Assembly (NCBI GenBank): GCA_021650895.1
Contig: CP091278.1
Location: 1,951,659 to 2,015,658, forward strand
Direction of reading: 5' to 3'
DNA length: 64,000 bases
Source of the DNA: Candidatus Jettenia sp.
GTDB lineage: Bacteria > Planctomycetota > Brocadiia > Brocadiales > Brocadiaceae
This document shows positions 2,523 to 19,565 of the stretch, piece by piece. The notes beneath the pieces are model-generated. The model ran no database searches, was not told the DNA's origin, and saw only the letters and a program-made list of their open reading frames with translations. The position numbers and the translations under genes were made by a program. Each line of letters begins with the position of its first letter. Position 1 is the stretch's first letter.

Positions 2523-2930
2523 TTTGCTGACTTTGCTATACAGGCCATATATTCCCCAAACTAAGCCGAATGCCTTTTTATCCCGAATTTCCTGCCAAAT
2601 AAATTTTAAAATATTTTTCCCTGAATAGTTACATAATTACGGGAAAAAATAAGCTTTCTGCACAGAAATGCCATGAAAATTACAAAAAAGTACCTGGTGA
2701 TTTGCTTTTTTGTGTTTTTCTTCCTGCCACTATTTCCACTCGGTTGTTTTAACTGTTGAGTATTCTTGCCGTTAAAAAACTTTATACCTTTTTTCCCCTT
2801 GAAAACATCTTTGGAATACCATTTGTGCTAGCTGACTAGAAAGCATACAGAGAAAGTAAGGAACTTGAATCCGTGTTGAATAATTTCATCATATACAGTT
2901 GTTATGCGTCTCACCTGAAGATAGTTTCCA
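2523..2930. other. Gene-free stretch upstream of the MopE-like gene
   Basis: No convincing coding signal on either strand. The only recognisable item is the 14-mer CCTGAATAGTTACA at 2620-2633, which is also the terminal inverted repeat of the small element at 29300-29423, so it may be a single leftover element end. The rest is A+T-rich and probably holds the promoter of the gene cluster that follows. Confidence 0.4.
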
Positions 2931-3004
2931 TTAACCCTCAAGATAAGGAGTCCGTTTATGCGTACCATCAAAGGTGGTCTCGTTGTTCTTTATCGTACTG
3001 GGAG
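2931..3004 (+). pseudogene. Decayed duplicate of a signal-peptide leader
   Basis: About 70 nt match the ribosome-binding site and signal-peptide start of the gene at 5419 (shared CCGTTTATGC, ATCAAAGG and TCTCGTTGTTCTTT). Here the frame opens as MRTIKGGLVVLYRTG and runs into a stop shortly afterwards. It sits just upstream of the MopE-like gene. It is best explained as the leftover front end of a duplicated copy of the 5419 gene whose back end is now the C-terminal part of the 3048 gene. Confidence 0.6.
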
Positions 3005-3047
3005 CGTAACCCCTCTATTTCAATGGATATCCTGACAGGAGCAAAAT

Positions 3048-4220
3048 ATGAGAAAATTTATTCTGTACGCGAACATGATGGTTCTTCTTTTTTCTCTGGC
3101 AACAACCCTGATGGCAGATGTCGTTACGGTTTTTGAACGCACCTATGTGCGCAAGAGCGGATCACCCGCCACGCAGACAGACACATTCCCCGGCATTAAA
3201 GGCCTCACTACTATACGGGTAACCAATGGCGGTCTTGGGGACGCAGACAACAGGAAGGTAAGCAGTGCAGATATTGTATTAAATAAAAAGGCCATCATCG
3301 ACTCATCCAATTTGAATCAAAAGGTAGAGGTAGTAGACGTAGAGAAGTCCCTTGACGGCAAAATAAATACGATTGAAGTTACCGTAAAAGGCAAACCGGG
3401 AGGAGCATTAACCGTCCAGGTACTTGCCGAAGATGGAGATATCGACTTTGACAGCGATGGTTTTACGAGAGTCGAGGGGGATTGTGATGATAAAAATTTC
3501 TCTATAAACCCAAAGGCTCAAGAAATATGCGATGACGTGGACAATAACTGCGATGGACAGATTGATGAGGGACTGAAAACCACATTTTATGAAGATGCCG
3601 ATGGTGACGGATATGGGAACCTACAGGTTACCACAAAGGCATGCAGCCAGCCTTCAGGCTATGTTACCAATAATACCGACTGTAACGACACCAATGCCTC
3701 GATAAATCCGGGAGCTACTGAGATAAAGAAGAATGGTGTTGATGATGACTGTAACGCATCGACACCGGATGATGATACGGGAGCAAACCTCCCACCTGAT
3801 CCCGGGGAGGAAGGCAAGAAGACGTTGCTGGGGATAGATACCGATGGCGATGGGGTCCGTGATGACATTCAACGGTACATATACTTTACCTATCCCGATG
3901 ATAAGAAACTTCGATTAGGTCTTACTTACTATGCTAAAGAGTTTCAAGGTGTGCTTAAAGATGCTAATGACCGTGAGGCTGCTTATGAACATGCAAAGAA
4001 TATGGTTCGCCATGGTGATTGCCTCTGGTACCTTAAGGATGAGGAGTCCATAGATATTTGTAGTGCATTGCGTGCCAAGATTCTGAATACCAGAGAGCGC
4101 AGTATTGCATACATTAAATACAGTGATAATCTGGGTGGCAGAATAATTTCAGGCGCTCCACAGAAAGAATGGAAGGACAGTTGTTCCTTTGATGTAGATG
4201 ATACGGGAGGTGACCAATGA
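3048..4220 (+). CDS. Secreted MopE-like metal-binding motif protein
   Basis: 390 residues. A signal peptide (residues 1 to about 24, ending around TTLMADV) points to export. Residues about 135-240 hold two putative metal-binding repeats of the MopE type, recognisable as GDCDDKNFSINP..EICD.VDNNCDG and DCNDTNASINPGATEIKKNG. MopE of methanotrophs binds copper, but the metal here is unknown. Residues about 248-390 form a second domain with an Asp-rich DTDGDGVRDD loop resembling thrombospondin-3/EF-hand calcium loops, followed by a Cys-containing helical part. That domain is repeated almost unchanged in the protein at 5419. The start has AGGAGC upstream and the gene overlaps the next one by ATGA. 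Probably periplasmic or surface-exposed. Confidence 0.8.
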   Translation: MRKFILYANMMVLLFSLATTLMADVVTVFERTYVRKSGSPATQTDTFPGIKGLTTIRVTNGGLGDADNRKVSSADIVLNKKAIIDSSNLNQKVEVVDVEKSLDGKINTIEVTVKGKPGGALTVQVLAEDGDIDFDSDGFTRVEGDCDDKNFSINPKAQEICDDVDNNCDGQIDEGLKTTFYEDADGDGYGNLQVTTKACSQPSGYVTNNTDCNDTNASINPGATEIKKNGVDDDCNASTPDDDTGANLPPDPGEEGKKTLLGIDTDGDGVRDDIQRYIYFTYPDDKKLRLGLTYYAKEFQGVLKDANDREAAYEHAKNMVRHGDCLWYLKDEESIDICSALRAKILNTRERSIAYIKYSDNLGGRIISGAPQKEWKDSCSFDVDDTGGDQ

Positions 4221-5368
4221 AAATCCGATGGATATCTCATATAGTACTTCTTGTTAGCTTTCTTGCTATATCAGGTGTTGTTTATGGTGAGGGTGAGCAA
4301 CAATGTCAACCTGGTATAGTTATCTTTTTTGGAAATGGCGTGTGGAATGATGTGGAGGACGCCAATGGAAGCAGGCGTAAATTGGAAACTCGTCTAAATA
4401 CACACATATCAGGAACAAACCTAGACGGCACAATAACATACAAATTAGCTCACAATCCCTCCGAAGGTGCATTGGAGGACTTGCTGGAGACATTTGAACA
4501 AGAAGCGCAAACCGATTATAGTAAACTTTGGAACTATCTTGCCGGTTTGGATATTATGCCGGATTACCTTCAAGACAAATTGAAAGAGATTGCAAATATA
4601 GTTAATGCCGCTATTGTAAGCGCCAACCCGTCGGTTCAAGAGCATATTGGACAGTATAATACATACTTACGTGAAGGCAGGAAGGTGGTACTTGTTGCGC
4701 ATTCTCAGGGCAATCTGTATGGCAATATTGCATATCTCAGTATAAACCCGCAATATCTTGATAGATTCGGTATCGTATCAGTAGCCAATCCAGACGATTA
4801 CGTTGCCGGTGGAGGTCCCTATACAACGATTAGAGAAGATCTTATCATCGGCAGCCTTCCAACCGCATTAGATTCGAATGTTAACAATTTCTCAAACACC
4901 TATATCAATCCGTTTGATTTGAGTGGCCATAGCTTTATAAAATCTTATATGTTTTCTGATCATGACGCTGAAAGACAAATCCTTGAGGATATCGTTAACA
5001 CGATCGATAAACTCAGTTCTTCGTATGAGATTACAGAAATCGTGAATACGTATAATATTCTTCGGGTTGCCTGCGGTAATCCAGGTACAACATTGGTAAC
5101 AATACCCCAGGATGTATATATTACGGAAATCAGCACCTATCACTGGTGCGATGGAGGCCAGCCTGCCGGAACACATTCCTTATACAATCTCAACTCATTT
5201 CTCGTGTATGGGCCATTTTCAGGAACGACTGACTTTCGTTTCTGGCTATCATATCCCAATACCTATGTACCCGCAGGAAACTATGAAGTTATCGACTCTG
5301 AACCAAGCACCTGGTCACACACGTATAGCGGTGGATTTGTGAGAATCAAGGGAATACTGTGTTATTAG
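4217..5368 (+). CDS. Secreted alpha/beta-hydrolase, lipase-like
   Basis: 383 residues with a signal peptide (about 1-24, ending VVYGEG). The nucleophile elbow AHSQG (residues 161-165, Ser163) follows the strand KVVLV, as in lipases and esterases of the alpha/beta-hydrolase fold. Candidate acid residues are D193/D194 (NPDD) and a candidate histidine is H238 in DLSGHSFI. The last 100 residues have no recognised domain and contain several cysteines. The gene overlaps the preceding MopE-like gene by four nucleotides (ATGA), so the two are almost certainly co-translated. The substrate is unknown; the pairing with calcium-loop proteins suggests an exported enzyme assembled with them. Confidence 0.75.
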   Translation: MKIRWISHIVLLVSFLAISGVVYGEGEQQCQPGIVIFFGNGVWNDVEDANGSRRKLETRLNTHISGTNLDGTITYKLAHNPSEGALEDLLETFEQEAQTDYSKLWNYLAGLDIMPDYLQDKLKEIANIVNAAIVSANPSVQEHIGQYNTYLREGRKVVLVAHSQGNLYGNIAYLSINPQYLDRFGIVSVANPDDYVAGGGPYTTIREDLIIGSLPTALDSNVNNFSNTYINPFDLSGHSFIKSYMFSDHDAERQILEDIVNTIDKLSSSYEITEIVNTYNILRVACGNPGTTLVTIPQDVYITEISTYHWCDGGQPAGTHSLYNLNSFLVYGPFSGTTDFRFWLSYPNTYVPAGNYEVIDSEPSTWSHTYSGGFVRIKGILCY

Positions 5369-5952: not shown

Positions 5953-6042
5953 AAGTTCTATAGATAAGTCACTTTTGTAATTATCGTTACGATTATTATT
6001 GTGTAATTGTGTAACTGTTCGTTCTTATTTAAAAGCGGCTGG

Positions 6043-6082
6043 CGAAAAATGATGGGGTCAAACGAAAAATGATGGGGTCAAA
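6043..6082. repeat. Two tandem 20-bp units at a transposon end
   Basis: CGAAAAATGATGGGGTCAAA occurs twice head to tail (6043-6062 and 6063-6082). The second copy runs into the left inverted end of the REP element. This could be target-derived duplication or a recognition site for the HuH transposase. Confidence 0.7.
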
Positions 6083-7122
6083 TCTTTATTGTTGACAAAT
6101 CAACCTCGACCCTTTTGATAATCTGAGCAATATGGTTATCGTTTTTCAGTTTTTCTCGTAATCGTTTTCTCCCCTGGCTCACCGTACTATAGTCTACCCC
6201 CATCATTTCTCCTATCTCAGTTCCGCTAAGTCCACCAACCCGGTACAACAAGTCCATAGCTATTTGCCTTAGTATACCCCGCTCCTTTTTTATTTCATCA
6301 AAACTTTTGTTCATCTCTTTGCAGAGCGCATCAATGATTGCCTCTTTTGCGATATATCTTTTTAACCGCTGTACCGATGGAATCTCACGTGATTTCTCTG
6401 GTAAAAATGTATCTCTTACCCATTTCATAAACGTATCACTCCCCAGCACACTTCCTCCAATAACCTTCTCTCTTATATCAATACCTGCTGATACATCATT
6501 ACAGATAGTTTCCCGGTACAATTTCCTTCCTTTTGTGTTATCCCCTCCATATGACTCAAGTATCCTGGCATACTCAATATCAAGAATACTACTCCTTCGG
6601 GTATCATCGATATAGCCCAAAAGGCTGCTCCACGTGTAGTTCTTTAAATATTTCACCCTTTCTGACAACGACAGATTCCCTTCCTGTTTTGTTCTCACCG
6701 GGTTTACATGGATATATCGGGATACCGTATGCAGATAACCTTTCTTTTCCACGAGAATACTTTTATATCTTCCCTGATACAAATGGCCAATCCTTTTATG
6801 TCTTTTATTGTAGTGCGATGTGTAGGTAATGTTAAACCATCTCATAAATTCACTGAGATTGGCAAGGGGTGTTTCTAAAAGCAGATGGAAGTGATTATCC
6901 ATGAGGACATAACAGTACAGGATGATAGTATAAGTTTTCAGCCCATCATGCAACAACTCAAGAAACAGATTCTTGTCATAATCATCCTTGAATATCGCCT
7001 TCCGCTCGTTACCTCGGCATGTGACATGGTATAATGCATCTTCGTATTGTATTCGCAGTGGCCTTGCCATCCCAAAATCATATCAGAAACAAACTATTTG
7101 TCAATAATAAAGATTTGACCCC
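6074..7122 (-). mobile_element. Complete REP-type transposase element
   Basis: The transposase gene is enclosed by inverted ends. GGGGTCAAATCTTTATTGTT begins at 6074, and the complement of the same sequence, with one or two changes, ends at 7122 (7096-7122). An internally deleted relative with the same ends lies at 34141-34355, showing that this family moves or once moved as a unit with these borders. Confidence 0.75.
6078..7070 (-). CDS. REP-associated tyrosine transposase (Y1/HuH)
   Basis: 330 residues. The N-terminal Y1 transposase domain (about 1-150) shows RGNERKAIFKDDYDK, the HuH metal site in MDNHFHLLLE, the segment RIGHLYQGRYKSIL and a catalytic tyrosine candidate in YIHVNP. The C-terminal third (about 240-325) looks like a DnaA-type helix-turn-helix (GLSGTEIGEMMGVDYSTVSQ), the usual companion domain in long REP transposases. 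Such enzymes cut and join single-stranded DNA at palindromic sequences. The frame is intact and both element ends are present, so it may be active. The N-terminus MARPLRIQYEDALYHV is typical, supporting the start. Confidence 0.9.
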   Translation of the reverse strand: MARPLRIQYEDALYHVTCRGNERKAIFKDDYDKNLFLELLHDGLKTYTIILYCYVLMDNHFHLLLETPLANLSEFMRWFNITYTSHYNKRHKRIGHLYQGRYKSILVEKKGYLHTVSRYIHVNPVRTKQEGNLSLSERVKYLKNYTWSSLLGYIDDTRRSSILDIEYARILESYGGDNTKGRKLYRETICNDVSAGIDIREKVIGGSVLGSDTFMKWVRDTFLPEKSREIPSVQRLKRYIAKEAIIDALCKEMNKSFDEIKKERGILRQIAMDLLYRVGGLSGTEIGEMMGVDYSTVSQGRKRLREKLKNDNHIAQIIKRVEVDLSTIKI

Positions 7123-7173
7123 TATTCTACAACTCCTTTGACTCTTCTTTGACCACCCTTTGACTCTCACGGT

Positions 7174-7872
7174 TCATTGGATATCGATGAAATCCAAGCG
7201 CATGAAATACTCGGTCGATTCCGGCGTCCAGTCGTCGGCAACGAACGCCTCGACTCTCAACATGCGGATGGCGAAGCCACACGAGTGGTTGAGAAACCGA
7301 ACAGCCTTAACGAGCTGCGAAGGGAAGCCCTCGTCGATCAATATCCCAGCTTGGGGCAGGAGTCTGATAAACTTGTCGGTGATCTGATACTCTTCGATAA
7401 ACTTGGTGAACTTCTCGGTATGGACGTGGATCGTTACGGAATCAGTGAACTTCGAGATGAAGTGTTCTCGCCGCTGAGTCAGAAAGGCCATGTCGAGCTT
7501 TTGGAATCCAAGATCAGCCATGTAGCGGATGAGCTGTCCATGAGTGTCCTTGGATGTGCCGCCGATCTTGAGTTCGCATGGGAGAAGTCCTCCATCGTCG
7601 CGGAGGTATAAGAGGTCAATGCGTTGATCCTCGTCGCCACCCTTGAATTCGGCGTCCACGAGCGTAAGTCCAACGGCTGGAAAACTGGTCCACATATCTG
7701 CACCACACAGGATGTGCTGGAAATGCTCCATCTCACGCCAGCCTAAATCGTCTTTGAGGCTAATCCGGCGGCGAAGCGTATAGTAAGTCGTCCAGCACTT
7801 GTCTGAATAAGGCTTGATCCCAAAGGAGATGCCGGCCTGTGGGTCTTTCAGAAAGAAGAGCGACGTCGCCAT
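7174..7872 (-). CDS. Putative PD-(D/E)XK nuclease-like protein
   Basis: 232 residues. Around residues 80-105 the pattern RIDLLYLRDDGGLLPCELKIG resembles the core of PD-(D/E)XK nucleases: an acidic residue in a beta strand, a turn, then E-x-K. A similar arrangement occurs in predicted endonucleases that act on damaged or foreign DNA. The remainder has no motif I can name. Base composition is clearly richer in G+C than the neighbours, which suggests transfer from another source. It lies just outside the right end of the REP element and has no obvious partner such as a methylase. Function is inferred only from the short motif. Confidence 0.5.
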   Translation of the reverse strand: MATSLFFLKDPQAGISFGIKPYSDKCWTTYYTLRRRISLKDDLGWREMEHFQHILCGADMWTSFPAVGLTLVDAEFKGGDEDQRIDLLYLRDDGGLLPCELKIGGTSKDTHGQLIRYMADLGFQKLDMAFLTQRREHFISKFTDSVTIHVHTEKFTKFIEEYQITDKFIRLLPQAGILIDEGFPSQLVKAVRFLNHSCGFAIRMLRVEAFVADDWTPESTEYFMRLDFIDIQ

Positions 7873-8221
7873 ATTATGCGGGTAGTGGGCCTAACAATGA
7901 TTATACAGCCTGTACAAAACGGCAAACACAGACTGTTCTGATATATTTAAGAAGTTGCCGATCTTCTTGTCACGTATTGTAACTTGTTTCGTATTAAGCA
8001 TTTTCCATCTTTTCGCTAAATTGGCTCGATTGTTTGTAATAATTCACCGCAGAGGGCACGGAGAACGCAGAGAAATAAAGGAAAGATAGAAATTTTGTAT
8101 AATACTTCTGCTTATACCTCTATTACATTCTCAGCGACCTCGGCGTTCCCCCATTCCCCGTTTTCACGAGGATAAATTTCATGAGGGCAGACTCTGCGGT
8201 GGGCTGAACTGTTACGATTAT
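7873..8221. other. Intergenic region with possible gene scrap and repeat
   Basis: The minus strand at about 7889-8000 can be read as MLNTKQVTIRDKKIG...YRLYNHC-stop, possibly the leftover of an HTH protein, but nothing confirms it. From about 8035 to 8215 the sequence resembles the repeat at about 26250-26340 (…CACGGAGAA…AATAAAGG…). No intact gene is seen. Confidence 0.3.
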
Positions 8222-9409
8222 TTAAACCTTCTTATCTTTATCAATGATCTCGCCAGGCCCTGTGCCTACTCCTGGCCAAATCTTTCTTCCCGGATAGATT
8301 GTTGTGTTTATTCCTGTGTGAACATCATCAGCGATTATGGCCCCAAACTTCCTTCGGCCGGTATCAATCAGTTCGCCTTTCACTTCTGACTTCACGTTTT
8401 TATTGTCATGTCTTAAATTAGCGGTTATTGTTCCTGCGCCCAGATTGCTATTTTCTCCAACAACGCTATCTCCAATATAAGAAAGATGAGGAACTTTTGC
8501 TTTATCCATAATGATACTGTTTTTTATCTCAACCGCCTGTCCGATATGGCAATTGTTTCCGATAGAGGTATTCCCTCTTAAAAAACAGTTGGGGCCTATG
8601 GTGCAATTTTCGCCAATAACAACATTCCCGTCAATGTACGTTCCCGGTAAGATTACCGTCCCTTTTCCTACGTGTATCTTCCCTTTTACTACAACGTTCT
8701 TCTCTAATTTTCCCTTTATTTCATTTTTTATTTCAGAGACTAAAACGTTATTTACCTGAATTAAATCCCAAGGGTACCCTACAGACAACCAATGTCCTTT
8801 TACCTTTTCACAGACGACTTTCTCTTCTTTGACAAGCTCATTGATGTAGTCAATTATTTCGTATTCACCCCGTGGACTTTTTTTCAGCTTAAATTTGAAC
8901 ACATTTTTATCAAACACATATAATCCCGTATTCGCTATGTTTGACACATATGTCTGGGGTTTTTCAACGATGTTTTTCACCCCTTTACCCGACAAAACAA
9001 AGACGCCGAATCTGCCCGGATCTTCAACTTCACATCCTAGGACAGCGTATGTATGTTTTAAACATGCTTGTATGTCTACTCTGGAAAAGAGATCGTCGCC
9101 GCCTAAAACGAGAAATTTATTTTTAATCAAATCTTCAACAGACTTCAGGGCATGCCCCGTACCCAACTGTGTTTTTTGTTCTCTGTACTGAATGCTTAAT
9201 TTCCCATATTTAGGCCCTATCTCGTTTATGATCATTTCCTTCATAAACCCTACGATTATAATAACCTCGCTCACCAATCCCTGCAAAGCATCCAGGTTAT
9301 GTTTCAGTATCTCTTTATTCATTACTTTTAGTAATGGCTTTGGCTTTGTTAAGGTCAGTGGCCATGTCCTTGTACTTTTTCCCGCAGCTAAAATGACGGC
9401 TTGTATCAT
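8222..9409 (-). CDS. glmU: Bifunctional sugar-1-P nucleotidylyltransferase/acetyltransferase (GlmU-like)
   Basis: 395 residues. The N-terminal nucleotidyltransferase domain (about 1-230) starts MIQAVILAAGKSTR with KPKP following and has GGDDLF as the metal-binding region. The C-terminal left-handed beta-helix (about 245-395) shows hexapeptide repeats and the motifs GAGTITANLRHD and PGRKIWPG found in GlmU and its archaeal relatives. The overall form, with a glucose-1-phosphate thymidylyltransferase-like front end, is closer to archaeal GlmU than to the E. coli enzyme. It probably makes UDP-N-acetylglucosamine from glucosamine-1-phosphate. It starts 3 nt after the glmM stop, so the two are co-transcribed and act in consecutive steps. 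Confidence 0.82.
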   Translation of the reverse strand: MIQAVILAAGKSTRTWPLTLTKPKPLLKVMNKEILKHNLDALQGLVSEVIIIVGFMKEMIINEIGPKYGKLSIQYREQKTQLGTGHALKSVEDLIKNKFLVLGGDDLFSRVDIQACLKHTYAVLGCEVEDPGRFGVFVLSGKGVKNIVEKPQTYVSNIANTGLYVFDKNVFKFKLKKSPRGEYEIIDYINELVKEEKVVCEKVKGHWLSVGYPWDLIQVNNVLVSEIKNEIKGKLEKNVVVKGKIHVGKGTVILPGTYIDGNVVIGENCTIGPNCFLRGNTSIGNNCHIGQAVEIKNSIIMDKAKVPHLSYIGDSVVGENSNLGAGTITANLRHDNKNVKSEVKGELIDTGRRKFGAIIADDVHTGINTTIYPGRKIWPGVGTGPGEIIDKDKKV

Positions 9410-9412
9410 AAT

Positions 9413-10771
9413 TTAAACCCCGATCTCTCTTTTTATACCCTGGGCAATTTCATTCGCCATTTTTTGAATTTCTTTTTTATGTTCACCTTCAATCATAACC
9501 CTGCATAAATTCTCCGTTCCTGAATATCTGACAAGCACCCTTCCTTTTTCCCCTAATTTTTCTTCTGTTTTCCGGATATGCTTCTTTACTTCCAGGGTGT
9601 CGATATCTTTTTTTTCTTTTACCTTAACGTTAATAAGCACCTGGGGCAGGGATTTCATGCATTCTGCTAACTTACTTAGTTTTTCACCTTTCTCCTTCAT
9701 AATTCCCAACAATTGTAAGGCAGAGATTATTCCGTCACCTGTTGTTGTATAATCTGAGAAGATTATATGTCCGGACTGTTCCCCGCCCAAAACATATCCT
9801 TTCTTTCTCATTTCGTCAATAACATATCTGTCTCCCACCTTTGTCTTAACAACACGGATATTCTTTTTATCCATCGCAATGTCGAATCCTTTATTCGTCA
9901 TGATCGTAGTGACAACGCAATTTTTCGTTAATGTGCCTTTCTCTTTCAGGTACATAGCGCATATTGCAATGATATGGTCGCCATCCACATTATTTCCCTT
10001 TTCATCACAAACGATTACTCTATCCGCATCACCGTCTAGTGCTATTCCAATATCTGCCTTTTCTTTTTTCACAACATCCTGCATTATTTCAGGATGCAGC
10101 GCCCCGCAATTCAGGTTTATGTTAAGTCCGTCTGGTTTATCGTTGAGCACAATAACTTCTGCTCCTAACTCTCTGAATATCTGTGGTGCAGTGTTATATG
10201 CGGCGCCATTAGCACAATCCAAGACAATTTTTAGTCCTCGTATACTCAAGTTTTTCATAGAGGCTTTTGCAAATTCTATATACCTTCCTTTTGCATCATC
10301 AACGCTATACACATTTCCTATGAAACTTCCTGTTATATGTTCTGTTTTTACCTTTTCTGTTAAGATATATTTTTCAATTTCCTCTTCGAAGTTATCGGAC
10401 AGCTTATAGCCATCACTGCTAAAAATCTTTATTCCATTATCTGCGGCAGGATTATGTGAAGCGCTAATTACCATACCTGCATCAACATTCAGCGATTTTG
10501 TCAAATGAGCAATGGCAGGCGTTGGCATATGACCAACGAGGAAGGCATCGGCTCCTACGGATAAAATCCCGGATGTTAAAGCATTTTCTATCATACAGCC
10601 GCTGAGCCTGGTATCTCTTCCGATAACAAGTTTAGGCCTTTTCTTCCCGTTTTTTTCCCTGAAAACATGAGCAGTGGCTTTCCCAATGTTCAACACTACT
10701 TCAGGCGTCATAGGGAATGTATTTGCTATACCTCGTATACCATCTGTTCCAAATAATTTTTCCATGTTCAT
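9413..10771 (-). CDS. glmM: Phosphoglucosamine mutase
   Basis: 452 residues with the full phosphohexomutase layout. The GTDGIRG start motif is at residues 8-14, the phosphoserine loop SASHNP carries S105, the metal loop DGDAD lies at 246-250 and the phosphate-binding RYSGTEN loop is near the C-terminus. It interconverts glucosamine-6-phosphate and glucosamine-1-phosphate in the route to UDP-GlcNAc for peptidoglycan and lipopolysaccharide. Residue 3 is a second possible start. It is upstream of the GlmU-like gene with a 3-nt gap, making a compact glmM-glmU unit. Confidence 0.93.
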   Translation of the reverse strand: MNMEKLFGTDGIRGIANTFPMTPEVVLNIGKATAHVFREKNGKKRPKLVIGRDTRLSGCMIENALTSGILSVGADAFLVGHMPTPAIAHLTKSLNVDAGMVISASHNPAADNGIKIFSSDGYKLSDNFEEEIEKYILTEKVKTEHITGSFIGNVYSVDDAKGRYIEFAKASMKNLSIRGLKIVLDCANGAAYNTAPQIFRELGAEVIVLNDKPDGLNINLNCGALHPEIMQDVVKKEKADIGIALDGDADRVIVCDEKGNNVDGDHIIAICAMYLKEKGTLTKNCVVTTIMTNKGFDIAMDKKNIRVVKTKVGDRYVIDEMRKKGYVLGGEQSGHIIFSDYTTTGDGIISALQLLGIMKEKGEKLSKLAECMKSLPQVLINVKVKEKKDIDTLEVKKHIRKTEEKLGEKGRVLVRYSGTENLCRVMIEGEHKKEIQKMANEIAQGIKREIGV

Positions 10772-10843
10772 TTATTATCTGTTCAAAAATAATCGTATAG
10801 TACACTGTCAACTTAATTTACCATAATAGACTCTCTCGTATTT

Positions 10844-10924
10844 GTCATTGCGAGGGGTATTTTCCCGAAGCAATCTCTTTTGAAATGTCCAAGGGATTGC
10901 TTCGGACAATACCCTCGCAATGAC
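10844..10924. repeat. Palindromic GTCATTGCGAGG repeat
   Basis: GTCATTGCGAGG(GG) at the left is answered by CCTCGCAATGAC at the right, with inner arms GAAGCAATCTC and GATTGCTTCGG. The same palindrome is found inside the MITE-like element at 62520-62756. This is a dispersed extragenic palindrome; no gene is involved. Confidence 0.8.
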
Positions 10925-11495
10925 ATAGCCCCATGCAGTTGAACCAATACAAATCGTATTATCATGAATTATATTGACACTGTAGTAGTGCTTACGAAAA
11001 ATATTTTGTAGTGGCAAGGTGCGCCTTGCCACTACGGTCTTTTCTGATTCATTCGGGTTAAAATATTAAAGCAAAATTTCATGAGATTGCAATGTATTTT
11101 ATGGTAAAGAACTCTACGGATTACCGCTATGTAAGTACCTCACCATAAGTCTTTGTACCTATTTTTTGATTAAGTGAAGGTAGAATTCAGAAGCCAGGAG
11201 ATAGAATCGTGTGTACTGTGGAGTATGCAGTATTGGTAAGTTGGGTTGAGGAATGAAACCCAACGGATATTCAATGCAAAATGTAAAACGAACAATTAGC
11301 AATGATCAATGCTAACTGCTAACTTTGCACTGCATATCAGTCTCTCGTAAAATGTGCAAATATTTATGTACAGATACTTATAAGACTCAATAATGTTCTC
11401 GCGTAAAATCGGTAACAAAGCTGAGCTTATGGTAAAACGATTGGGTAATTGCTTGCTATGGAAGGTTTTGTCTGGCAAGTTATCGTTTAGTCAAG

Positions 11496-11639
11496 GGTGG
11501 CACTGACAAACTCTGTTTGTCAGTGTGTTATATTGCCTATCCACGTTAACATTTGAAACAAGCACGGACAAACAAAGTTTGTCCGTGCCACCATAAAACC
11601 CGCTTACATAAAATGAAAATTTCTATACAATCAAGTTAC
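11496..11639. repeat. Dispersed repeat with 'GACAAAC..GTTTGTC' palindromes
   Basis: GTGGCACTGACAAACTCTG begins the block. Small palindromes TGACAAACTCTGTTTGTCA and GGACAAACAAAGTTTGTCC follow, and it ends in AAAATGAAAATTTCTATACA. Close relatives occur at about 37387-37610 and 63220-63305. No open reading frame. Confidence 0.7.
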
Positions 11640-11644
11640 AGGGC

Positions 11645-11925
11645 CTTTCAACCACGCATACGTTGCAAAGCGGCTTTCGTGCCATGCAGGTACTCCGGCC
11701 GTGGGTTTGGGTTATCATAACAAGGCATGCCCTTGTTCATTTTTCCTGTGGAATGATTTTGCATAGCGATTGTTCGGTCTTATCGGGATCGCTGGACTTG
11801 TCCAATTCTAAACGGTGGGAAAAATGAAAGATATGGGTATCCACGGCTATGGCCGTCTTCCTGCTTACCTCAAGGCAGGTGAAGACTTTAGGATCGCCTT
11901 GATCGGTGATTATTGAATTAGCAGT
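11645..11925 (-). pseudogene. nth: Endonuclease III (nth) remnant
   Basis: The minus strand reads RKTAIAVDTHIFHFSHRLEL, then KIIPQEK, an in-frame TGA at 11737-11739 and THGRSTCMARKPLCNVCVVE followed by RPC. This matches endonuclease III: the helix-hairpin-helix/VDTHV region and the C-terminal C-x6-C-x2-C-x5-C iron-sulfur loop. The stop falls where the family has tryptophan (TGG to TGA). About a dozen residues are missing between RKTA and IAVDTH, and the N-terminal half is gone. The family is a DNA glycosylase/AP lyase for oxidised pyrimidines, but this copy cannot be functional. Confidence 0.78.
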
Positions 11926-11949
11926 GACTTATACCAACAATGCTATTCA

Positions 11950-12105
11950 CAAATCAAGATGGGTAACCCCATTCGCCCTGTTCAAGCCAGGCTAAAAAAC
12001 TTTCAGTATCCTCGTCACAGAAGAATGTCTGTAAACGGCGATTTCCTCGCTGAGTAATATGGTGTGGAACTTCCAGTACGACTTACACGAGCAATTCTGG
12101 ACATG
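11950..12105 (-). pseudogene. N-terminal fragment of a REP transposase
   Basis: From an ATG-like MSRIARV the minus strand, read across two frame changes, gives a run close to RGNRR..TFFCDEDTESFLAWLEQGEWGYPS, as at the start of REP-associated transposases. It is cut off by the nth remnant. The repeat end at 12122-12162 immediately upstream probably marks the element border. Confidence 0.6.
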
Positions 12106-12121
12106 CTCACATCTTAACTAT

Positions 12122-12162
12122 TTTAAAAACAATGGCAATAATTAAGTATGGTGTCCCCAGAA
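12122..12162. repeat. Element end, second copy
   Basis: Matches 876-915 (…AATTAAGTATGGTGTCCCC). It lies exactly between the REP-transposase fragment and the truncated ModE-like fragment, consistent with being the terminus that interrupted the latter. Confidence 0.65.
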
Positions 12163-12265
12163 TTTTCCAAATTTTTCAGGCGGTCTACGGCCTCTAAGAG
12201 CATCTTCCTCCCTTCCGCAAAAGCCACTCCGCCGTTTTTCTCAAACCATATCTTGAATTTTACTT
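12163..12265 (-). pseudogene. ModE-type HTH N-terminal fragment
   Basis: The minus strand reads KFKIWFEKNGGVAFAEGRK followed by MLLEAVDRLKNLE. This is the usual opening of ModE/LysR-type winged-helix proteins (k.Wle..G...fGeGR..LLeaid..gs). It stops at the repeat end at 12162, so only the first ~33 residues remain. ModE proteins sense molybdate in other bacteria; here there is no functional product. Confidence 0.55.
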
Positions 12266-12314
12266 TTATAAAGGTGATGTACTATCATTTCGGTGTCAAT
12301 AGAAAAACCCATGG

Positions 12315-14498
12315 TTAAGACTTGTTTCGTTTCTTTATTGGCAGCGTTATTACGATTTTTGTAAATTCTCCTTCCTTGCTTTCGATCGTAAGTTTGCCGC
12401 AGTAATTTTTGATAATACCATGACTAATGCTTAATCCTAATCCGGTTCCAATACTCCGGGGTTTTGTGGTAAAAAAAGGATCCATCACTTTATCTCTTAT
12501 ATGAGCAGGTATACCAATACCATGATCATAAAAGATAATCTTCAGATACGGATGGTTATCAATCGTTACTTCCTCACTAAGAATCTCCAGGATCTTATCA
12601 TCATGTGTTCCTGGGTACTTTTGGTTTAAGGCATACCGTGCATTACTTATGATATTTAAAAAGACCTGTTGGAACTGTTGTGGATGGACAAATACATTAG
12701 GTAATTCCTGCGAAATATCGCATTTTATCTTAATGCCGTCTCTCCGCGTTTGGGGATTGGTTAGAATAAGCACATCAGACATTATTTTATATAAGCTCGT
12801 CGGAACTTCTTCCTCGCTTACGGTATGCGGCTTTGCAAAAAAGAGGAGACTATGCACTATTTTGGCTATGCGGTCGCTTTCCTTAATAATCCGGCTGGCA
12901 AGGTCTTTTTCCTTACTTCCCTCGGTGCTTTTATTAAATAATATTTGAGCACAGTTGATCACCCTTGTTATAGGATTGTTAATCTCATGTCCTACTCCTG
13001 CTGCCAATTCACCTAATGCGGCCAATTGCCTGTTAGCCATGGCTTCCCTTTCTAATGCAGCCTTTTCGGTTATATCCAGGAAAGACCCTAAGACACCAAT
13101 AATATTACCCTGTTCATCCTTGATAGGGATTTTTATGGTATGAATGATACGTTCTTTTCCATTCTTCATGTATCTCTCTATGATATCCTCTGCTTTCCCT
13201 GACTCTATAATCCTTTTGTCATCCGCCCGATATTTATCAGCAAGTTCTTTCGAGTGAATATCATAGTCGGTCTTTCCGACAATTTCCTCAGGTTTTATGT
13301 GCAAATCCCTTGCTAAATTTTCATTGCAAGATACATATACCGAGTTCCTGTCTTTGTAAAATATCCTTTGTGGAAGATTCTCAAGAAGCATTCTATAGTC
13401 CCTCTCACGTATTCGTAATGCCTCTTCTGTCAGTTTACGTTCTGTAATTTCTTCCTGGAGTAATTGATATGTACGGGCATGGGAAATTACCAAACCACAA
13501 ACTTTAGTAAGCATGAGGGCAAGGTTGAGATATTGTTCCTTATATTCCGGGAAAGCAAAGCCTGTAGACTCGAGAATGCCTAATACTTCATTCTGATAGG
13601 TGATTCGAAGCAAAAATCCATCTCTTGATTCTGTCCAGGCATAATCCCCTTGTAAACTCAGGAGCCGGTTTTTTACTGCCTCGTTGTCAACTGGCTCTGC
13701 AGGCTGGGAGTAAATATTTCCTGGTTTTCCAGCTTTAAAAGGAATATAGGTAACCCTATCTGCCGCAAAGAGTGTGACATATATATTGAGTATAGTTTTA
13801 ATGGCTTCCTCTTCTGATGTCAGCCTGGTTAATCTACTCAGTAAATCACACATCATAGAATAATCTGCGAGTTGTCGGTTGATACTGGGGAAGGGCTGCA
13901 ATTGTTTGCTTTTGCAGTTTAAACGCCATTCAAGGACTGTCTTTATCAGAAACAATCTGAAGAAATCTAAACCCACGGGCACAATTTCAAAAGGAATACC
14001 AGTGAAATTGGAAAATTCACGAAGATAATCGGAACTCTTTAAGTCAACCCCGGTATCCAGGAGTATGAGCTTTGTAACGGATTCTTCAAAGAATTGTCGA
14101 ATTAATTGCTTATCAAACCCACTTTTCTCTAAAGAGTGGTACCAATATTTGATGGATCCGGGAACTGACAGGTGAGCACCTGCTTTAAGGTATTTATCAA
14201 TAAGAGTACTATTTATGAAGAGAGAAAAACACTGGTCTATTTTATGAACACGACAGTGTTCAAATCTTTTGGAAAATTCTCCTGGTTCAGGAATGCAGGA
14301 GTTACAAAATATATGAATTTGGTCAAAGGTGTTTTTACTGCTGGCAATGATCTTTGTTAATGCTTCCGTGTTTTGCTGAACATCACTGTGAGCGGGAAAT
14401 TTCATTACCGTTACATCATCAAGTCCTTCCGATTCTGTAATGGCTGACGCTTCACGCTCAAGGTACTCACAAAACATGAGGCAAAGTTTACCTGTCAT
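12315..14498 (-). CDS. Histidine kinase with DUF1638-like, GAF and PAS regions
   Basis: 727 residues, no clear membrane segments, so likely cytosolic. Residues about 1-195 resemble DUF1638, a family often found beside corrinoid methyltransferases: Cys-rich IFCNSCIP, VPGSIKYWYHSLEKSGFD, and KLILLDTG near 143-150. Residues about 215-345 look like a GAF domain, 365-480 like PAS. HisKA follows with H504 in AAGVGHEINNP, then HATPase_c at about 600-725 with the GTGLGLSISHGI ATP-lid motif. The ATG lies inside the end of the upstream corrinoid/methyltransferase gene (11-nt overlap), so the two are translated together. No response regulator is adjacent. Kinase activity is well supported; DUF1638 assignment is by pattern only. 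Confidence 0.8.
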   Translation of the reverse strand: MTGKLCLMFCEYLEREASAITESEGLDDVTVMKFPAHSDVQQNTEALTKIIASSKNTFDQIHIFCNSCIPEPGEFSKRFEHCRVHKIDQCFSLFINSTLIDKYLKAGAHLSVPGSIKYWYHSLEKSGFDKQLIRQFFEESVTKLILLDTGVDLKSSDYLREFSNFTGIPFEIVPVGLDFFRLFLIKTVLEWRLNCKSKQLQPFPSINRQLADYSMMCDLLSRLTRLTSEEEAIKTILNIYVTLFAADRVTYIPFKAGKPGNIYSQPAEPVDNEAVKNRLLSLQGDYAWTESRDGFLLRITYQNEVLGILESTGFAFPEYKEQYLNLALMLTKVCGLVISHARTYQLLQEEITERKLTEEALRIRERDYRMLLENLPQRIFYKDRNSVYVSCNENLARDLHIKPEEIVGKTDYDIHSKELADKYRADDKRIIESGKAEDIIERYMKNGKERIIHTIKIPIKDEQGNIIGVLGSFLDITEKAALEREAMANRQLAALGELAAGVGHEINNPITRVINCAQILFNKSTEGSKEKDLASRIIKESDRIAKIVHSLLFFAKPHTVSEEEVPTSLYKIMSDVLILTNPQTRRDGIKIKCDISQELPNVFVHPQQFQQVFLNIISNARYALNQKYPGTHDDKILEILSEEVTIDNHPYLKIIFYDHGIGIPAHIRDKVMDPFFTTKPRSIGTGLGLSISHGIIKNYCGKLTIESKEGEFTKIVITLPIKKRNKS

Positions 14499-16188
14499 AA
14501 TCTTTAACCCATTCCAGTGGATAATGTCCCCATGTATGAACAGCCTTTGCTATAGCCATTAACACCTCTTCAGGTACTTGTAAAGGGATTTCACCATGGT
14601 TATCGGATAGGATATAACCTCCACCGGGACCTACCCTGGCAATAGCCTCTTTTACAGCAGATTCTGCCTGTTGAGGCGTCCAGCGGATCATCTCAATAGC
14701 ATTCAAATTTCCAAGAACACTAAGTTTTCCCTTGCAAGTAGACTTTATTTCAGCCAAATCTTCGAGGGCACTCGCGGCAATCATTATTGCCCCCGTTTGT
14801 GCAATATCAGTCAGGATAGGTAAGCAGCGCGCGGCACTCATGTGGATTGCGGTAGGACCTTTGATTTTGGAAATGATTCTCTTTGCAATTTCAAATCCTG
14901 TCTTGAGGTACATTTCTCTTGGTATAATGGAGGCTGAAGAAACCGGGTCGGAATAGGCAATCGCAGTTGCTCCAGCTTCTAGCTGAGCATTTGCCCATTC
15001 CACACAAAATATCTCATTTACCTTCATTAATTGCCAGAACAATTCCGGGTCTTCATACATTAACTCTATATACTTATCGAACCCCATCTGCATAACGGGT
15101 AATGTCAGGGGAGAAGTTACAACCCCCAGGACAGGGGCATCATCAACCTTTTCCCTCAGCATTCTCGTGGCGTTTAACACCTTATATAAACAGCTTGATT
15201 TTTGAATATTTGGTGGTTGTAGATACTTGATATCTTCTCTCGTACGGATAATGGGTGCGCCTGCATTGGGCGGGCCGTCATCAAAATACATTACTTCGGC
15301 ACCCCATGCCTCCACTTCAAGGGCAGAATAAAAGAAGTTAGTGACACAATCATGCCGATACCGGGCACGGAAACGGATTTGTGCCTCTACAACATTCTCT
15401 GGCCTGGAGAAATACTCTTTGAGTGATATACCTAATTCTTTGGCGCCATGGAGGATAGTGGGTAAAAAGAACGGTACCCGGTCCGGTTCCTTATAGTCGA
15501 GTGTTGTTAATATGCGTTGAAGTGATGTCATATGTGCCTGCATCATAAGTTCACTCTTTGTTAACTCAGAAATGATGGTTATTACTTCTGATGCGTTATG
15601 TCCCATAGCATCAGCACCTACTTCTTTCCAAAGTTGATTATCAAAAAGAAAAGGAGCGCCTCCAACGATGATTTTGGTATCAAGATTGGACTCTTTAAGC
15701 AGCCCCTTTACCTGTTTTACTCTCAGGGCCGATCGAAGCATCAACGTTGATATCAGAAGGATCTTAACTTCATCCTTTTTGACATAATCAACGAGGTTAT
15801 CTACACGAATTCCATGTCCATAATCGAGTAATTCAAACCCACTGGCGCGTAAAACTGAATAGACAATGCGCTTGCCCAATATATGATAATCTTCAAGAAC
15901 GGCAATAGCTATTTTTACCTGGGGCCTTCGATTATGTGCACCTGGTGGAAGAATGGTATCTACTAACTCTTCACAAATACGTCCGCCCATATAAACCTGG
16001 GATAGAGCAATCTTCCCTTGCTCCCACCCCAAACCGATCCGCTCCAAAGCGGGGACAATGAGTTTATCTATAGTCTGAATTGGGCTAAAGTCCTTACTCA
16101 ATTCCATAAATATTTCTTTAGATACTAATTGATTCGTGGATAACAGCGCTTGTTCAAACCTGGAGATAAATTCCTCAAGTTCTTTCAT
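14488..16188 (-). CDS. Corrinoid-binding domain fused to MtaA/UroD-like methyltransferase domain
   Basis: 566 residues. The first ~215 are a MtaC-type B12 module: helical cap, then DYHILG at 100-105 (the DxHxxG cobalt-ligand motif, H102), S147-T-L149 and GG at 176-177. Residues about 225-560 form a uroporphyrinogen decarboxylase-fold domain of the MtaA/CmuA kind. Such domains normally bind Zn through H-x-C plus a distal Cys. Here H449 is followed by M450-S451, and the distal segment reads SDNHGEIP (528-535), so the usual thiol ligands appear replaced. The domain may bind another ligand or only sense methylation state. It overlaps the kinase gene by 11 nt. Confidence 0.82.
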   Translation of the reverse strand: MKELEEFISRFEQALLSTNQLVSKEIFMELSKDFSPIQTIDKLIVPALERIGLGWEQGKIALSQVYMGGRICEELVDTILPPGAHNRRPQVKIAIAVLEDYHILGKRIVYSVLRASGFELLDYGHGIRVDNLVDYVKKDEVKILLISTLMLRSALRVKQVKGLLKESNLDTKIIVGGAPFLFDNQLWKEVGADAMGHNASEVITIISELTKSELMMQAHMTSLQRILTTLDYKEPDRVPFFLPTILHGAKELGISLKEYFSRPENVVEAQIRFRARYRHDCVTNFFYSALEVEAWGAEVMYFDDGPPNAGAPIIRTREDIKYLQPPNIQKSSCLYKVLNATRMLREKVDDAPVLGVVTSPLTLPVMQMGFDKYIELMYEDPELFWQLMKVNEIFCVEWANAQLEAGATAIAYSDPVSSASIIPREMYLKTGFEIAKRIISKIKGPTAIHMSAARCLPILTDIAQTGAIMIAASALEDLAEIKSTCKGKLSVLGNLNAIEMIRWTPQQAESAVKEAIARVGPGGGYILSDNHGEIPLQVPEEVLMAIAKAVHTWGHYPLEWVKDYDR

Positions 16189-16206
16189 AGTGGAAGATTT
16201 CTATAC

Positions 16207-16235
16207 TATTATTCACAAATTCTATTTATTGACAA
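16207..16235 (-). promoter_or_regulatory. Sigma-70-type promoter of the corrinoid-kinase operon
   Basis: On the minus strand TTGTCA (16235-16230) and ATAATA (16212-16207) are 17 nt apart, and the -10 box lies about 19 nt before the ATG at 16188. The leader would be very short and no clear Shine-Dalgarno precedes the ATG, so translation may start on a nearly leaderless message. Confidence 0.55.
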
Positions 16236-16253
16236 GTTACAACTAATAAAGAA

Positions 16254-16330
16254 AGCTCCAGAGGAGCGACCTGAAATATGTCCACTTTTTGTTTGAATGG
16301 AGAGAAAAAGCCGGCCGCTCCTCTGGAGCT
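16254..16330. repeat. 15-bp perfect inverted repeat
   Basis: AGCTCCAGAGGAGCG (16254-16268) and its exact complement (16316-16330) flank a 47-nt loop. It resembles dispersed extragenic palindromes. It lies between the convergent end of the EF-G-like gene and the corrinoid operon promoter, and could also form a long hairpin in RNA. From 16331 to 16622 no further feature was recognised. Confidence 0.75.
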
Positions 16331-16622
16331 AAATGCAGTACCCGTATTCAACACTACAGATAGTCGGCTCCGATGGAGGGCGGAAGAAGATAGTGGAGTC
16401 TTGCAGAGGTAACGTGTTTTGTTTTGGAACAATCTGCGCCTATCTCTCGATTGTTATGATATAAATATGTTACTCTCTATTCCTCTATCTGATGTCTGGA
16501 CTTTTCAAAAAACTAAGTTGTTAACGGCGAATTATATCACCAATGTAATAATAATACAAATCATGGTATTACCCTGCAAGAACTTCTTTTTATATCGACT
16601 TTACTAATTACCTTGCTAATTT

Positions 16623-18665
16623 TTATTTTGCATGAGCAGCATGTGACTGGGCAATAATGGATTGCATGAGGTGAGCCGGGACGGCATCGTAATGGGAATG
16701 TTCCATGGTAAATGAGCCTTGCCCGGCGGTCATGGATTTCAGTTCAGCCTCATAGTTAGCTACGGACGATAAAGGAATGGCAGCACGCACGATTTGCAAA
16801 TCGCCCATAGATTCCATCCCTTTGATATGCCCGCGATGACTGGAAAGGTTCCCCGCAATTTCACCCATAAATTTCGTAGGAATAGTAACCTCGATATTTA
16901 CAACAGGCTCAAGGAGTACAGGTTTCGCATGATGAAAGGCATCCTGAAATGCATGTGAGGCCGCTATCTTGAAGGCTGCCTCGGAAGAGTCTACATCGTG
17001 ATAAGACCCATAGTGTAATCGCACCCGAAGGTCTACAATGGGGTGATGAATCAATATGCCCTTATCCAAAACCTCCCGAATACCTTTTTCCACAGCGGGG
17101 ATATATTGGCGCGGAATGGCTCCGCCTACAATCTCGTCCACAAATTCAAAGCCTGACCCCCTTGATAACGGTTCGATCTTGATATGAACCTCACCATACT
17201 GTCCGTGTCCTCCCGTCTGCTTCTTATGCTTATACTGTGCCTGGGCATTTGCGGTAATGGTCTCCTTATAGGGAATTTTTGGGATATGTGTCTCCACTTC
17301 AATTCCAAAGCGCCGTTTTAGCCGGCTTATCATAACGTTGAGATGGAGATTACTCATGCCGGTAACAACTAATTCATTCGTTAATGTGTCATGGGAGGTT
17401 CTAAAAGTTTTGTCTTCTTCAGTAAGCTTGTGGAGACATTCACTGATCTTTTTTTCCGCCCCTTTACTTTTCGGTATCACGGCTAACGAGGACATGGGGA
17501 CTGGGAATGTCATCCCGGGAAATTTTATAGGGTGTTTAGGATCGCAGATTGTATCAGATATATGTAAATCCTCTAGTTTTGATACCGCAATTATATCTCC
17601 TGGAATGGCCCTTAAGACTGGCCTCTGCTCCTTTCCAAAAACCCGGTAGATATGCCCAACCTTATCTATCTTCTTACTGGTCACATTATAAAATGATATC
17701 TCACCATCCAGCTTACCTGAGATAACCCTGAAATAATTTAATTTTCCTACAAAAGGATCAATGACAGATTTAAATACAAAGGCGCTGAAAGGGGCATTTT
17801 CAGAAACTTCCGGGGCGATTTCCTGATTGCTTTGTATATCAAGAGCAGTTCTCTTAACTCCCTCTAATGGAGAGGGAGAAAAGTTGGCTATAGCATCCAG
17901 TATTTCTTCAATCCCTAAGACTTTTTTGTTAGAGCAACAGAGAATAGGTACAATATGCCCGCTTGCAATAGCATTGATAAAGCAAGTTTGTAAAGATGCC
18001 GTGTCAATCTCTTTCCCATCGAGGTATTTTTCCATCAATGCATCATCATCGGAAACAACGGCTTCGATCAAGGTATCGTGCGCTGCATTCGCATTACCCA
18101 CAATCCCACCCGGCAAAGGGTCAGGTAATTCAAATACGTTAACAACACCCTGAAAATCATGGCCAGTTCCTATGGGCAAGACGAATGGTACACATCTATT
18201 TCCAAAAGTATCCTGGATAGACTTAATCAAGGCCTGGTAATCAATATTTTCGCTATCGATCTTTGTTATAACAAGTATCTTTCCAAGTTTTTTTTGGCAT
18301 GCAAGATCCCAAAGTTTTTTGGTATTGACTTGGATTCCATCCGGGGCGGATATAGTAATGAGGGCCGTTTCTGCGGCAACAAGAGAGGTGATTGTGTCTC
18401 GAATAAAATCAGGGTAACCAGGTGTATCAACAACGGTAATTTCACGTCCCTTCCAATTGAAGTGAAGGATGGAAGAGTCTATCGTATGCCTCTTTTCCTT
18501 TGCTTCAGCATCATAATCAGACACCGAAGTGCCGTCTTCTACACTACCGAGACGTGTAGTTGCGCCTGCTTTAAAAAGCATAGATTCTACCAGCGAAGTC
18601 TTCCCTGAAGCACCGTGCCCTAGGAATACAATGGTCCGAATGTCTTTTATCTCATACGGAATCAT
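16623..18665 (-). CDS. fusA: Elongation factor G-like translational GTPase
   Basis: 680 residues. The GTPase domain opens with the P-loop GHGASGKTSL (about 15-24), the G3 motif DTPGYPDF and the G4 motif TKID. The remainder follows EF-G domain order II-V, with GGHGQYGEVHI in domain IV. The short EF-G-like subgroup (often called FusA2 or EF-G2) has this form, and it is likely not the main EF-G, which would be in the str operon. A role in translocation, ribosome recycling or rescue is inferred from the family. It is upstream of nothing closely linked: hisA ends 177 nt before its start on the same strand. Confidence 0.85.
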   Translation of the reverse strand: MIPYEIKDIRTIVFLGHGASGKTSLVESMLFKAGATTRLGSVEDGTSVSDYDAEAKEKRHTIDSSILHFNWKGREITVVDTPGYPDFIRDTITSLVAAETALITISAPDGIQVNTKKLWDLACQKKLGKILVITKIDSENIDYQALIKSIQDTFGNRCVPFVLPIGTGHDFQGVVNVFELPDPLPGGIVGNANAAHDTLIEAVVSDDDALMEKYLDGKEIDTASLQTCFINAIASGHIVPILCCSNKKVLGIEEILDAIANFSPSPLEGVKRTALDIQSNQEIAPEVSENAPFSAFVFKSVIDPFVGKLNYFRVISGKLDGEISFYNVTSKKIDKVGHIYRVFGKEQRPVLRAIPGDIIAVSKLEDLHISDTICDPKHPIKFPGMTFPVPMSSLAVIPKSKGAEKKISECLHKLTEEDKTFRTSHDTLTNELVVTGMSNLHLNVMISRLKRRFGIEVETHIPKIPYKETITANAQAQYKHKKQTGGHGQYGEVHIKIEPLSRGSGFEFVDEIVGGAIPRQYIPAVEKGIREVLDKGILIHHPIVDLRVRLHYGSYHDVDSSEAAFKIAASHAFQDAFHHAKPVLLEPVVNIEVTIPTKFMGEIAGNLSSHRGHIKGMESMGDLQIVRAAIPLSSVANYEAELKSMTAGQGSFTMEHSHYDAVPAHLMQSIIAQSHAAHAK

Positions 18666-18842
18666 AGGTTACCCTCCAACACAAGGTGATTGGAATTATT
18701 ACCATAGTTCACCACAGATACTCACAGAATTTCACCAGATGAAAACCAGGATTCAGCATACAGAAAACCCATCGGTAGTATTCTGATTCTGGTTTCAACT
18801 ATACACCTTTTCCACGATATTCTGAGCTTTTCCGTGGTTCAC

Positions 18843-19565
18843 TTATGTATGCAGATTACATACCTGTTTTGCCTCAGAAAGTTTGATGTGTCCTGTATAC
18901 AAAGCTTTTCCAATAATCATACCAGCAATAGGTAATTTACTCAATGCTTCAACATCTTTCAATGATGAAATTCCACCAGAAGCAATAATGGGAGTTTTTA
19001 CTGTCATGAAAAGTTCCTGTAAACTCGAAATGTTAGGGCCTTGAAGCATACCGTCTTTTGAGATGTCTGTATAAATTATAACGCATGGTGATGCTTTTTC
19101 AATCTCCTGTGCAAAGGCCAAGGCTGTCCATTCGCACACAGAGGTCCATCCCTTAACAGCTACCTTACCATTTTTCGCATCGATCCCAATAGCAATACGG
19201 CCTGGGAATGTTGCACAAAGCTCATTCACCCATGATGGCGAGTCTATAGCTTTTGTCCCTATAATCACACGATCTATGCCTAAATCAAGGACCATTTTGA
19301 TAGTCTGGGTTGTCCTCAAGCCACCGCCGAACTCAATAGGGATTTTTACCTGTTTGATAATTTGCTCTACAATATTCAGATTTTTCGGGGTGCCTTCAAA
19401 AGCCCCATCGAGATCCACCACGTGCAGATAATCTGCGCCCTGATCCTGCCACGACTTGGCCACATCGACAGGATTATCGGAAAAGATCGTTTCGGCATCC
19501 TTCTGCCCTTGTGTTAGCCGTACGCATTTACCACCTTTTAAGTCTATCGCTGGAATGATAAGCAT
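18843..19565 (-). CDS. hisA: HisA, ProFAR isomerase
   Basis: 240 residues, the normal length of the (beta/alpha)8 enzyme. The start MLIIPAIDLKGGKCVRL holds the first catalytic Asp. FGGGLRT (phosphate binding), VIIGTKA, and IYTDISKDGMLQGPN with the second catalytic Asp are all present, as is IASGGISS. It converts ProFAR to PRFAR in histidine synthesis. hisH lies upstream on the same strand, but 250 nt containing a dispersed repeat separate them. Confidence 0.95.
   Translation of the reverse strand: MLIIPAIDLKGGKCVRLTQGQKDAETIFSDNPVDVAKSWQDQGADYLHVVDLDGAFEGTPKNLNIVEQIIKQVKIPIEFGGGLRTTQTIKMVLDLGIDRVIIGTKAIDSPSWVNELCATFPGRIAIGIDAKNGKVAVKGWTSVCEWTALAFAQEIEKASPCVIIYTDISKDGMLQGPNISSLQELFMTVKTPIIASGGISSLKDVEALSKLPIAGMIIGKALYTGHIKLSEAKQVCNLHT

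Follow-up and report, generated by a model that had tools for sequence, protein, structure and literature searches.

Does a corrinoid protein that is encoded next to a histidine kinase serve metabolism or signalling? The question is raised by a gene pair at 12315-16188 of a 64,000-nucleotide stretch (the window) of the Candidatus Jettenia sp. contig CP091278.1 (positions 1,951,659 to 2,015,658), in which a corrinoid-binding domain fused to a UroD (MtaA-like) domain overlaps a kinase that begins with DUF1638 and GAF domains. With a probability of roughly 0.6, we consider this pair, and the wider cassette to which it belongs, to be a corrinoid-based sensory system that responds to a methyl or B12-related signal, not a piece of metabolism. 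The observations behind this reading are the anatomy of the pair, the conservation of its motifs, a gene linkage that holds in both directions, interchangeable outputs, and the absence of RamA and of conserved metabolic genes alongside.

Anatomy of the gene pair

The window pair and its domains are laid out as follows.

14488-16188, minus strand: corrinoid-UroD (MtaA-like) fusion, 566 amino acids (aa)
15549-16188, minus strand: corrinoid (B12) binding domain, fusion residues 1-213 (Pfam B12-binding_2 and B12-binding)
14488-15543, minus strand: UroD/MtaA-type TIM-barrel domain, fusion residues 216-566 (Pfam URO-D, 3.4e-55)
14488-14498, minus strand: overlap of fusion stop and kinase start, 11 nt (open reading frame coordinates)
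12315-14498, minus strand: DUF1638-GAF-PAS-histidine kinase, 727 aa
13884-14498, minus strand: DUF1638 domain, kinase residues 1-205 (Pfam 37 bits, cut-off 27; predicted local distance difference test, pLDDT, 92)
13449-13890, minus strand: divergent GAF domain, kinase residues ~203-350 (AlphaFold model and fold match, Z 16.7)
13059-13385, minus strand: PAS_4 domain, kinase residues 372-480 (Pfam 5.6e-20)
12315-13016, minus strand: HisKA and HATPase_c, kinase residues 495-727 (Pfam and motif positions)

The 11-nt overlap makes translational coupling of the two genes likely. The corrinoid domain has a helical cap (G52xxW55 ... Q64-V-Y66) and the Rossmann motifs D100-x-H102-x-x-G105, S147-x-L149 and GG176-177. 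The UroD domain lacks the Zn-thiolate cysteines and reads H449-M-S451 and S528-D-N-H531-G-E533-I-P. All of the HisKA His, N, G1 and G2 boxes of a two-component histidine kinase are present (H504 in GHEINNP, the N619 region, D658-H-G-I-G and G684-T-G-L-G-L). DUF1638 occurs once in the source genome, and the PAS_4 domain is shared with only a minority of relatives. These findings bear out the anatomy given by an earlier, sequence-only reading of this DNA: coordinates and Pfam agree with its two open reading frames, their domain make-up and their overlap, and its residue numbers (D100-Y-H102-I-L-G105, H449-M-S451, SDNHGEIP at 528-535, H504) are all exact. Its statement that H-M-S replaces H-x-C was confirmed by alignment with the MtaA-type structure 4ay7 and with this genome's own two canonical UroDs, all of which read HIC.

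The model of the fusion has a pLDDT of 91 and a predicted template-modelling score of 0.67, with the domain arrangement unsure. In fold comparisons of the predicted structure, the UroD part matches 4ay8 (Z 39.2, root-mean-square deviation (rmsd) 2.3, 332 residues) and HemE structures (Z ~36), and the corrinoid part matches 4jgi (Z 22.5, rmsd 2.9, 197 residues). The GAF domain of the window kinase has no Pfam match and is supported by its predicted structure, which superimposes on the GAF domain of PDE5A over 143 residues (rmsd 2.6). GAF domain matches fill the fold-match list of the DUF1638-GAF model (pLDDT 92), and a DUF1638-GAF profile search of solved structures gave nothing below E 0.8.

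Conserved sites in the family

Relatives were collected by scanning genome contigs with the UroD part as the sole seed; the scan found 287, and the 80 best were retained. Of 85 relatives, 84 have an intact corrinoid site (D100, H102 and G105 of DxHxxG, and GG), and W55, Q64, Y66 and D183 are family-specific residues unlike those of canonical corrinoid proteins. At UroD position 451, none of the 83 family members has Cys and nearly all have Ala, and the rest of the site is strongly kept (H449 in 78, D529 in 81, N530 in 82, H531 and E533 in all 83), with DNHGEIP nearly invariant. Because these residues are near-invariant without a Cys at 451, the UroD site is a rebuilt one held under constraint, not a decayed one. 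Both folds and the intact corrinoid motif are shared with the MtaA/MtbA methylcobamide:coenzyme M methyltransferases (4ay7/4ay8) and with MtaC/MttC/MtbC. The family differs from MtaA/MtbA in lacking the Zn-thiolate Cys, DNHGEIP replacing the distal one, and from MtaC/MttC/MtbC in its corrinoid cap, where W-x9-[VI]-Y replaces the usual F and L. As regards the marks of MtaA/CmuA-type (SCMT) enzymes, the UroD-superfamily barrel is present and the H-x-C ... C zinc ligands are absent; the window UroD scores 116.1 bits against NCBIfam TIGR01463, below the cut-off of 235.4. The pattern E-x14-E-x20-H, which we take to be the zinc motif of O-demethylase methyltransferases, was found in none of 86 sequences.

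In DUF1638, Cys10, Cys68 and Cys90 are common to the sensors and to stand-alone proteins and are present in the window, and together with a fourth position they may form a metal or Fe-S site. At that fourth position the sensors have Cys38 and the stand-alone proteins His39; the window copy has Ser38 beside His37, plus an extra Cys65. The stand-alone proteins of corrinoid methyltransferase systems (Phaeobacter PGA1_c13340, Ruegeria SPO2162) belong to the same Pfam family and keep the equivalents of the three cysteines invariant, and stand-alone DUF1638 genes adjoin corrinoid genes in several Planctomycetota loci; here, in contrast, the domain is fused to GAF and a kinase. DUF1638 is required for B12-dependent methionine synthesis in P. 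inhibens and was tied there to reactivation, the authors proposing no specific role for it (PMC5764234).

A linked cassette with interchangeable outputs

Beyond the window, the pair becomes a cassette of a corrinoid gene, a UroD gene and a DUF1638-GAF signalling gene, found in at least 12 phyla. Its hosts include Thermodesulfobacteriota, Pseudomonadota, Chloroflexota, Nitrospirota, Bacteroidota, Ignavibacteriota, Myxococcota, Verrucomicrobiota, a methanogen bin and others. Thus the "two-gene system" of the sequence-only reading is correct for the window and is elsewhere a three-gene cassette, locally fused. Among family members the corrinoid-UroD fusion occurs in the Brocadia copies only and is unusual for the family; overlaps between cassette genes in relatives are mostly 3 to 15 nt, similar to that in the window. 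The family UroDs form one supported clade (97/99) that excludes canonical UroDs as well as L011 and L015, two sequences from outside the family; branch order inside the clade is poorly resolved.

Linkage was counted in the 74 loci with at least 1.5 kb downstream of UroD and in the 81 with upstream DNA. The gene next to UroD encodes DUF1638(-GAF) in 57 loci and GAF only in 15, together 72 of 74, and a corrinoid gene is adjacent or fused to UroD in 79 of 81. These counts are not circular, because the UroD gene alone was the search seed. Two loci were scored as partnerless, L026 and L068, the latter having its partner in a longer overlapping reading frame. The reciprocal search with a DUF1638-GAF profile matched 9 of the 146 genomes of one order; the family UroD lay alongside in all nine, broken or shortened in two of them, and a corrinoid match nearby, in the stretch examined, in eight. 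In eight loci of Desulfobacula, Desulfamplus and Desulfotignum (L025, L032, L037, L042, L045, L049, L050, L057) the third gene encodes a GAF-only protein of ~240 aa, and in most of them a large hybrid kinase comes next; DUF1638 has been lost or replaced there. In another locus (L089) UroD and DUF1638 are fused in one frame, on a single contig of a metagenome-assembled genome (MAG) where misassembly is possible.

The output of the cassette varies. Among 50 third-gene proteins, 49 have DUF1638, 39 HATPase_c, 31 HisKA, 10 the receivers of hybrid kinases and 7 GGDEF; sensory modules typically show just this exchange of outputs while the input stays constant. The window kinase shares its core with NtrB/AtoS/ZraS-like cytoplasmic histidine kinases (best NCBIfam score AtoS, 206 bits, below the cut-off of 646) and differs from them in its DUF1638-GAF input and in having no cognate regulator gene adjacent. 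Relatives often lie in phosphorelay neighbourhoods, since 23 of 53 sampled downstream neighbour proteins have Response_reg and 26 HATPase_c; the remaining flanks hold housekeeping genes. Conserved metabolic neighbours were sought around the cassette loci and none were found. RamA is absent near the trio in 80 loci, bar one weak partial match at the edge of L093. The cassette departs from MtaA/MtbA systems in having a fixed signalling partner and no RamA alongside.

A sensor or an enzyme?

A sensor, as opposed to a metabolic enzyme, is well supported because the trio is conserved, its outputs are swapped and no metabolic genes are conserved with it. Cofactor occupancy, the signal, the direction of regulation and the partner we infer as follows. 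The corrinoid domain would carry a cobamide, as its intact DxHxxG/GG site suggests. The UroD-type barrel, an MtaA fold without Cys (H449, D529, N530, H531, E533), would supply specificity by binding a small molecule, in all likelihood a methyl donor or acceptor; barrel and ligand would then determine the corrinoid's state (methylation, redox or ligand), the cobamide acting as reporter. DUF1638, with its three or four conserved Cys or Cys/His, may dock on the corrinoid protein or exchange electrons with it, because the genetics of stand-alone DUF1638 suggest a role in B12 reactivation. The GAF and PAS domains could relay the state of the corrinoid, and the kinase would then autophosphorylate at H504 and signal to an unlinked response regulator.

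Several points weigh against a sensory role. We found no experiment on any cassette member, and DUF1638 is undetectable in 15 of the 74 loci. One planctomycete locus (L014 1489-3272, genome G144) has the corrinoid and UroD genes with no kinase downstream; a Ser/Thr-kinase-like reading frame lies upstream of them. The pairwise distances of the three cassette parts are correlated (rho 0.33-0.45, p ~0.0005, 2000 permutations), which counts in favour of the sensory cassette, but the correlation cannot tell a shared locus history from co-adaptation of the proteins. The window copy is itself off-consensus, with S451 for Ala and S38 for Cys. As the sequence-only reading had noted, no response regulator is adjacent: none of the 59 Response_reg matches of the genome falls inside the 64-kb window. 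Finally, one copy of the cassette lies among C1-oxidation genes, so that a metabolic link is possible.

That copy belongs to the best-placed alternative, in which UroD and corrinoid domain together are a functional MT-I type methyltransferase acting on some unknown methyl donor and the kinase is a co-transcribed regulator that senses something else. The MtaA fold is retained, the corrinoid site is intact, and the trio on plasmid pAZKH of Azoarcus sp. KH32C (L138) stands between formaldehyde-activating/formylmethanofuran genes (fae, fhcABCD) and quinoprotein-dehydrogenase accessory genes, hinting that C1 metabolism is the regulated process in that host. Moreover CdmB, a UroD-superfamily chloromethane:corrinoid methyltransferase, is active without zinc (PMC13222342). 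Like the family UroD, it is a barrel that works with a corrinoid protein without this metal, and by description it is set apart by its place in a metabolic operon, cdmBCA, with no signalling partner (PMC13222342). Since CdmB works, absent Cys ligands alone do not exclude catalysis (PMC13222342). The sequence-only reading had argued from missing Zn-thiol ligands that the protein is not a methyltransferase, and had named active relatives without these ligands as evidence that would speak against it; CdmB leaves the argument from cysteines weak (PMC13222342). Its conclusion of a sensor gains from the conservation of the trio in at least 12 phyla, the swapped outputs and the lack of co-travelling metabolic genes, and so rests on other evidence, modularity supporting it more than the missing cysteines do. 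Against a working enzyme, the trio has no RamA nearby (the L093 edge match aside) and no conserved metabolic neighbour; the Azoarcus flanking genes are not common to the other loci tested; and a third gene present in 72 of 74 loci is too constant for a dispensable regulator. Taken together, we regard this alternative as unlikely.

It is improbable that the UroD-type pocket, with its HemE-like distal His, instead senses tetrapyrrole or cobamide supply by taking up a tetrapyrrole or a free cobamide. Distal H531-G does align with the NLGHG His of HemE, and the fold resembles HemE as given above. The RQAGR motif of HemE is, however, absent from the N-terminal part of the family sequences, and genes for cobamide synthesis or uptake do not recur nearby.

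Slightly less probable still is a light sensor, a B12 photoreceptor like CarH or the photocobilins that is coupled to a kinase or cyclase. Such receptors share with the cassette a B12-binding domain as sensory input, a conserved GxxW (G52xxW55) and a possible GGDEF output, which 7 of 50 third genes have; a diguanylate cyclase is likewise driven by photocobilins (PMC11796333). Against this reading, the EH of the published signature (GxxW, EH, GxxH, GxxxP; PMC11796333) is replaced by [V/I]-Y and occurs in no family member, a bilin-binding domain is lacking, the UroD and DUF1638 partners indicate methyl chemistry, and many hosts are sediment or subsurface anaerobes.

A corrinoid-based sensory system would thus consist of known parts, drawn from two-component and B12-based sensing, in an apparently undescribed arrangement: no published description of the trio was found in the open-licence literature. 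Sensing through B12 is established for light (CarH, photocobilins), and we know of no case in which a corrinoid methyltransferase assembly is wired to kinases and cyclases. There is a fair chance, which we put at about even, that the cassette represents a separate class of sensors inside the cell: a whole corrinoid methyltransferase set (corrinoid protein, UroD-type barrel and DUF1638 partner) would have become, in many phyla, a plug-in input that informs histidine kinases or diguanylate cyclases of how a bound cobamide stands in methylation or redox state. If so, bacteria would have a general means, overlooked until now, of sensing methylated compounds or the state of a corrinoid; the cassette is widespread, its hosts including sulfate reducers, Chloroflexota, sulfur oxidisers, cable bacteria and methylotrophs. 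The cassette would also open a way to study DUF1638, whose part beside B12 methyltransferases is unexplained and whose function should show here as kinase output.

Related gene sets

A second, related cassette, with all genes overlapping, was seen in Desulfocicer vacuolatum (L142 1-3543) and Geomesophilobacter sediminis (L143 1-3537), in the order corrinoid gene, Cys-less UroD (HSTG/TSGPDIP in the former, HHTG/NSGADIP in the latter), stand-alone DUF1638 (204 aa) and GAF-PAS histidine kinase. In it DUF1638 is a separate link between UroD and kinase. L093 encodes a 663-aa corrinoid-UroD fusion at 183-2174 that differs in type (YYCGM ... GTGVVP) and, after it, a histidine kinase at 2650-5259; this is possibly a third kind of UroD-corrinoid sensor. 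The source genome also has a Zn-type cluster at ~3.42 Mb (L127 5973-11190), with a corrinoid gene, two Zn-type UroDs and RamA; it lies downstream of a formate-dehydrogenase-like gene and is probably a methyltransferase pathway in this anammox-type genome.

Distribution in the Brocadiales and surrounding DNA

Co-occurrence of the pair across the Brocadiales, which the sequence-only reading had put forward as a check, was not borne out: in a search of 59 relatives it was confined to this species, bar one contaminant contig. The sole match (G032) is 100% identical and lies on a short contig that also bears a 100% identical EF-G fragment. Because the same genome has its own EF-G (82%) elsewhere, this copy was rejected as a genuine Brocadiales occurrence and attributed to contamination. 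A Brocadia MAG from another collection (L017) has an identical copy of the cassette, and the same-genus genomes G001 and G002 lack it. Consequently, with few or contaminant matches and this absence, the cassette is sporadic in the group. G001 and G002 show rearrangement of the stretch that runs from EF-G to the phosphoglucosamine-mutase side, with transposase-like genes there in G002; since the same-genus genomes also differ at 10772-12314, the window locus is prone to rearrangement.

A scan of window positions 6000-19000 against Rfam gave zero matches, and promoter and terminator scans stayed near chance level. Downstream of the kinase, 10772-12314 is 1.5 kb with no convincing gene. At 6078-7070 lies a reading frame that, judged by its sequence, resembles a REP-associated (Y1) transposase.

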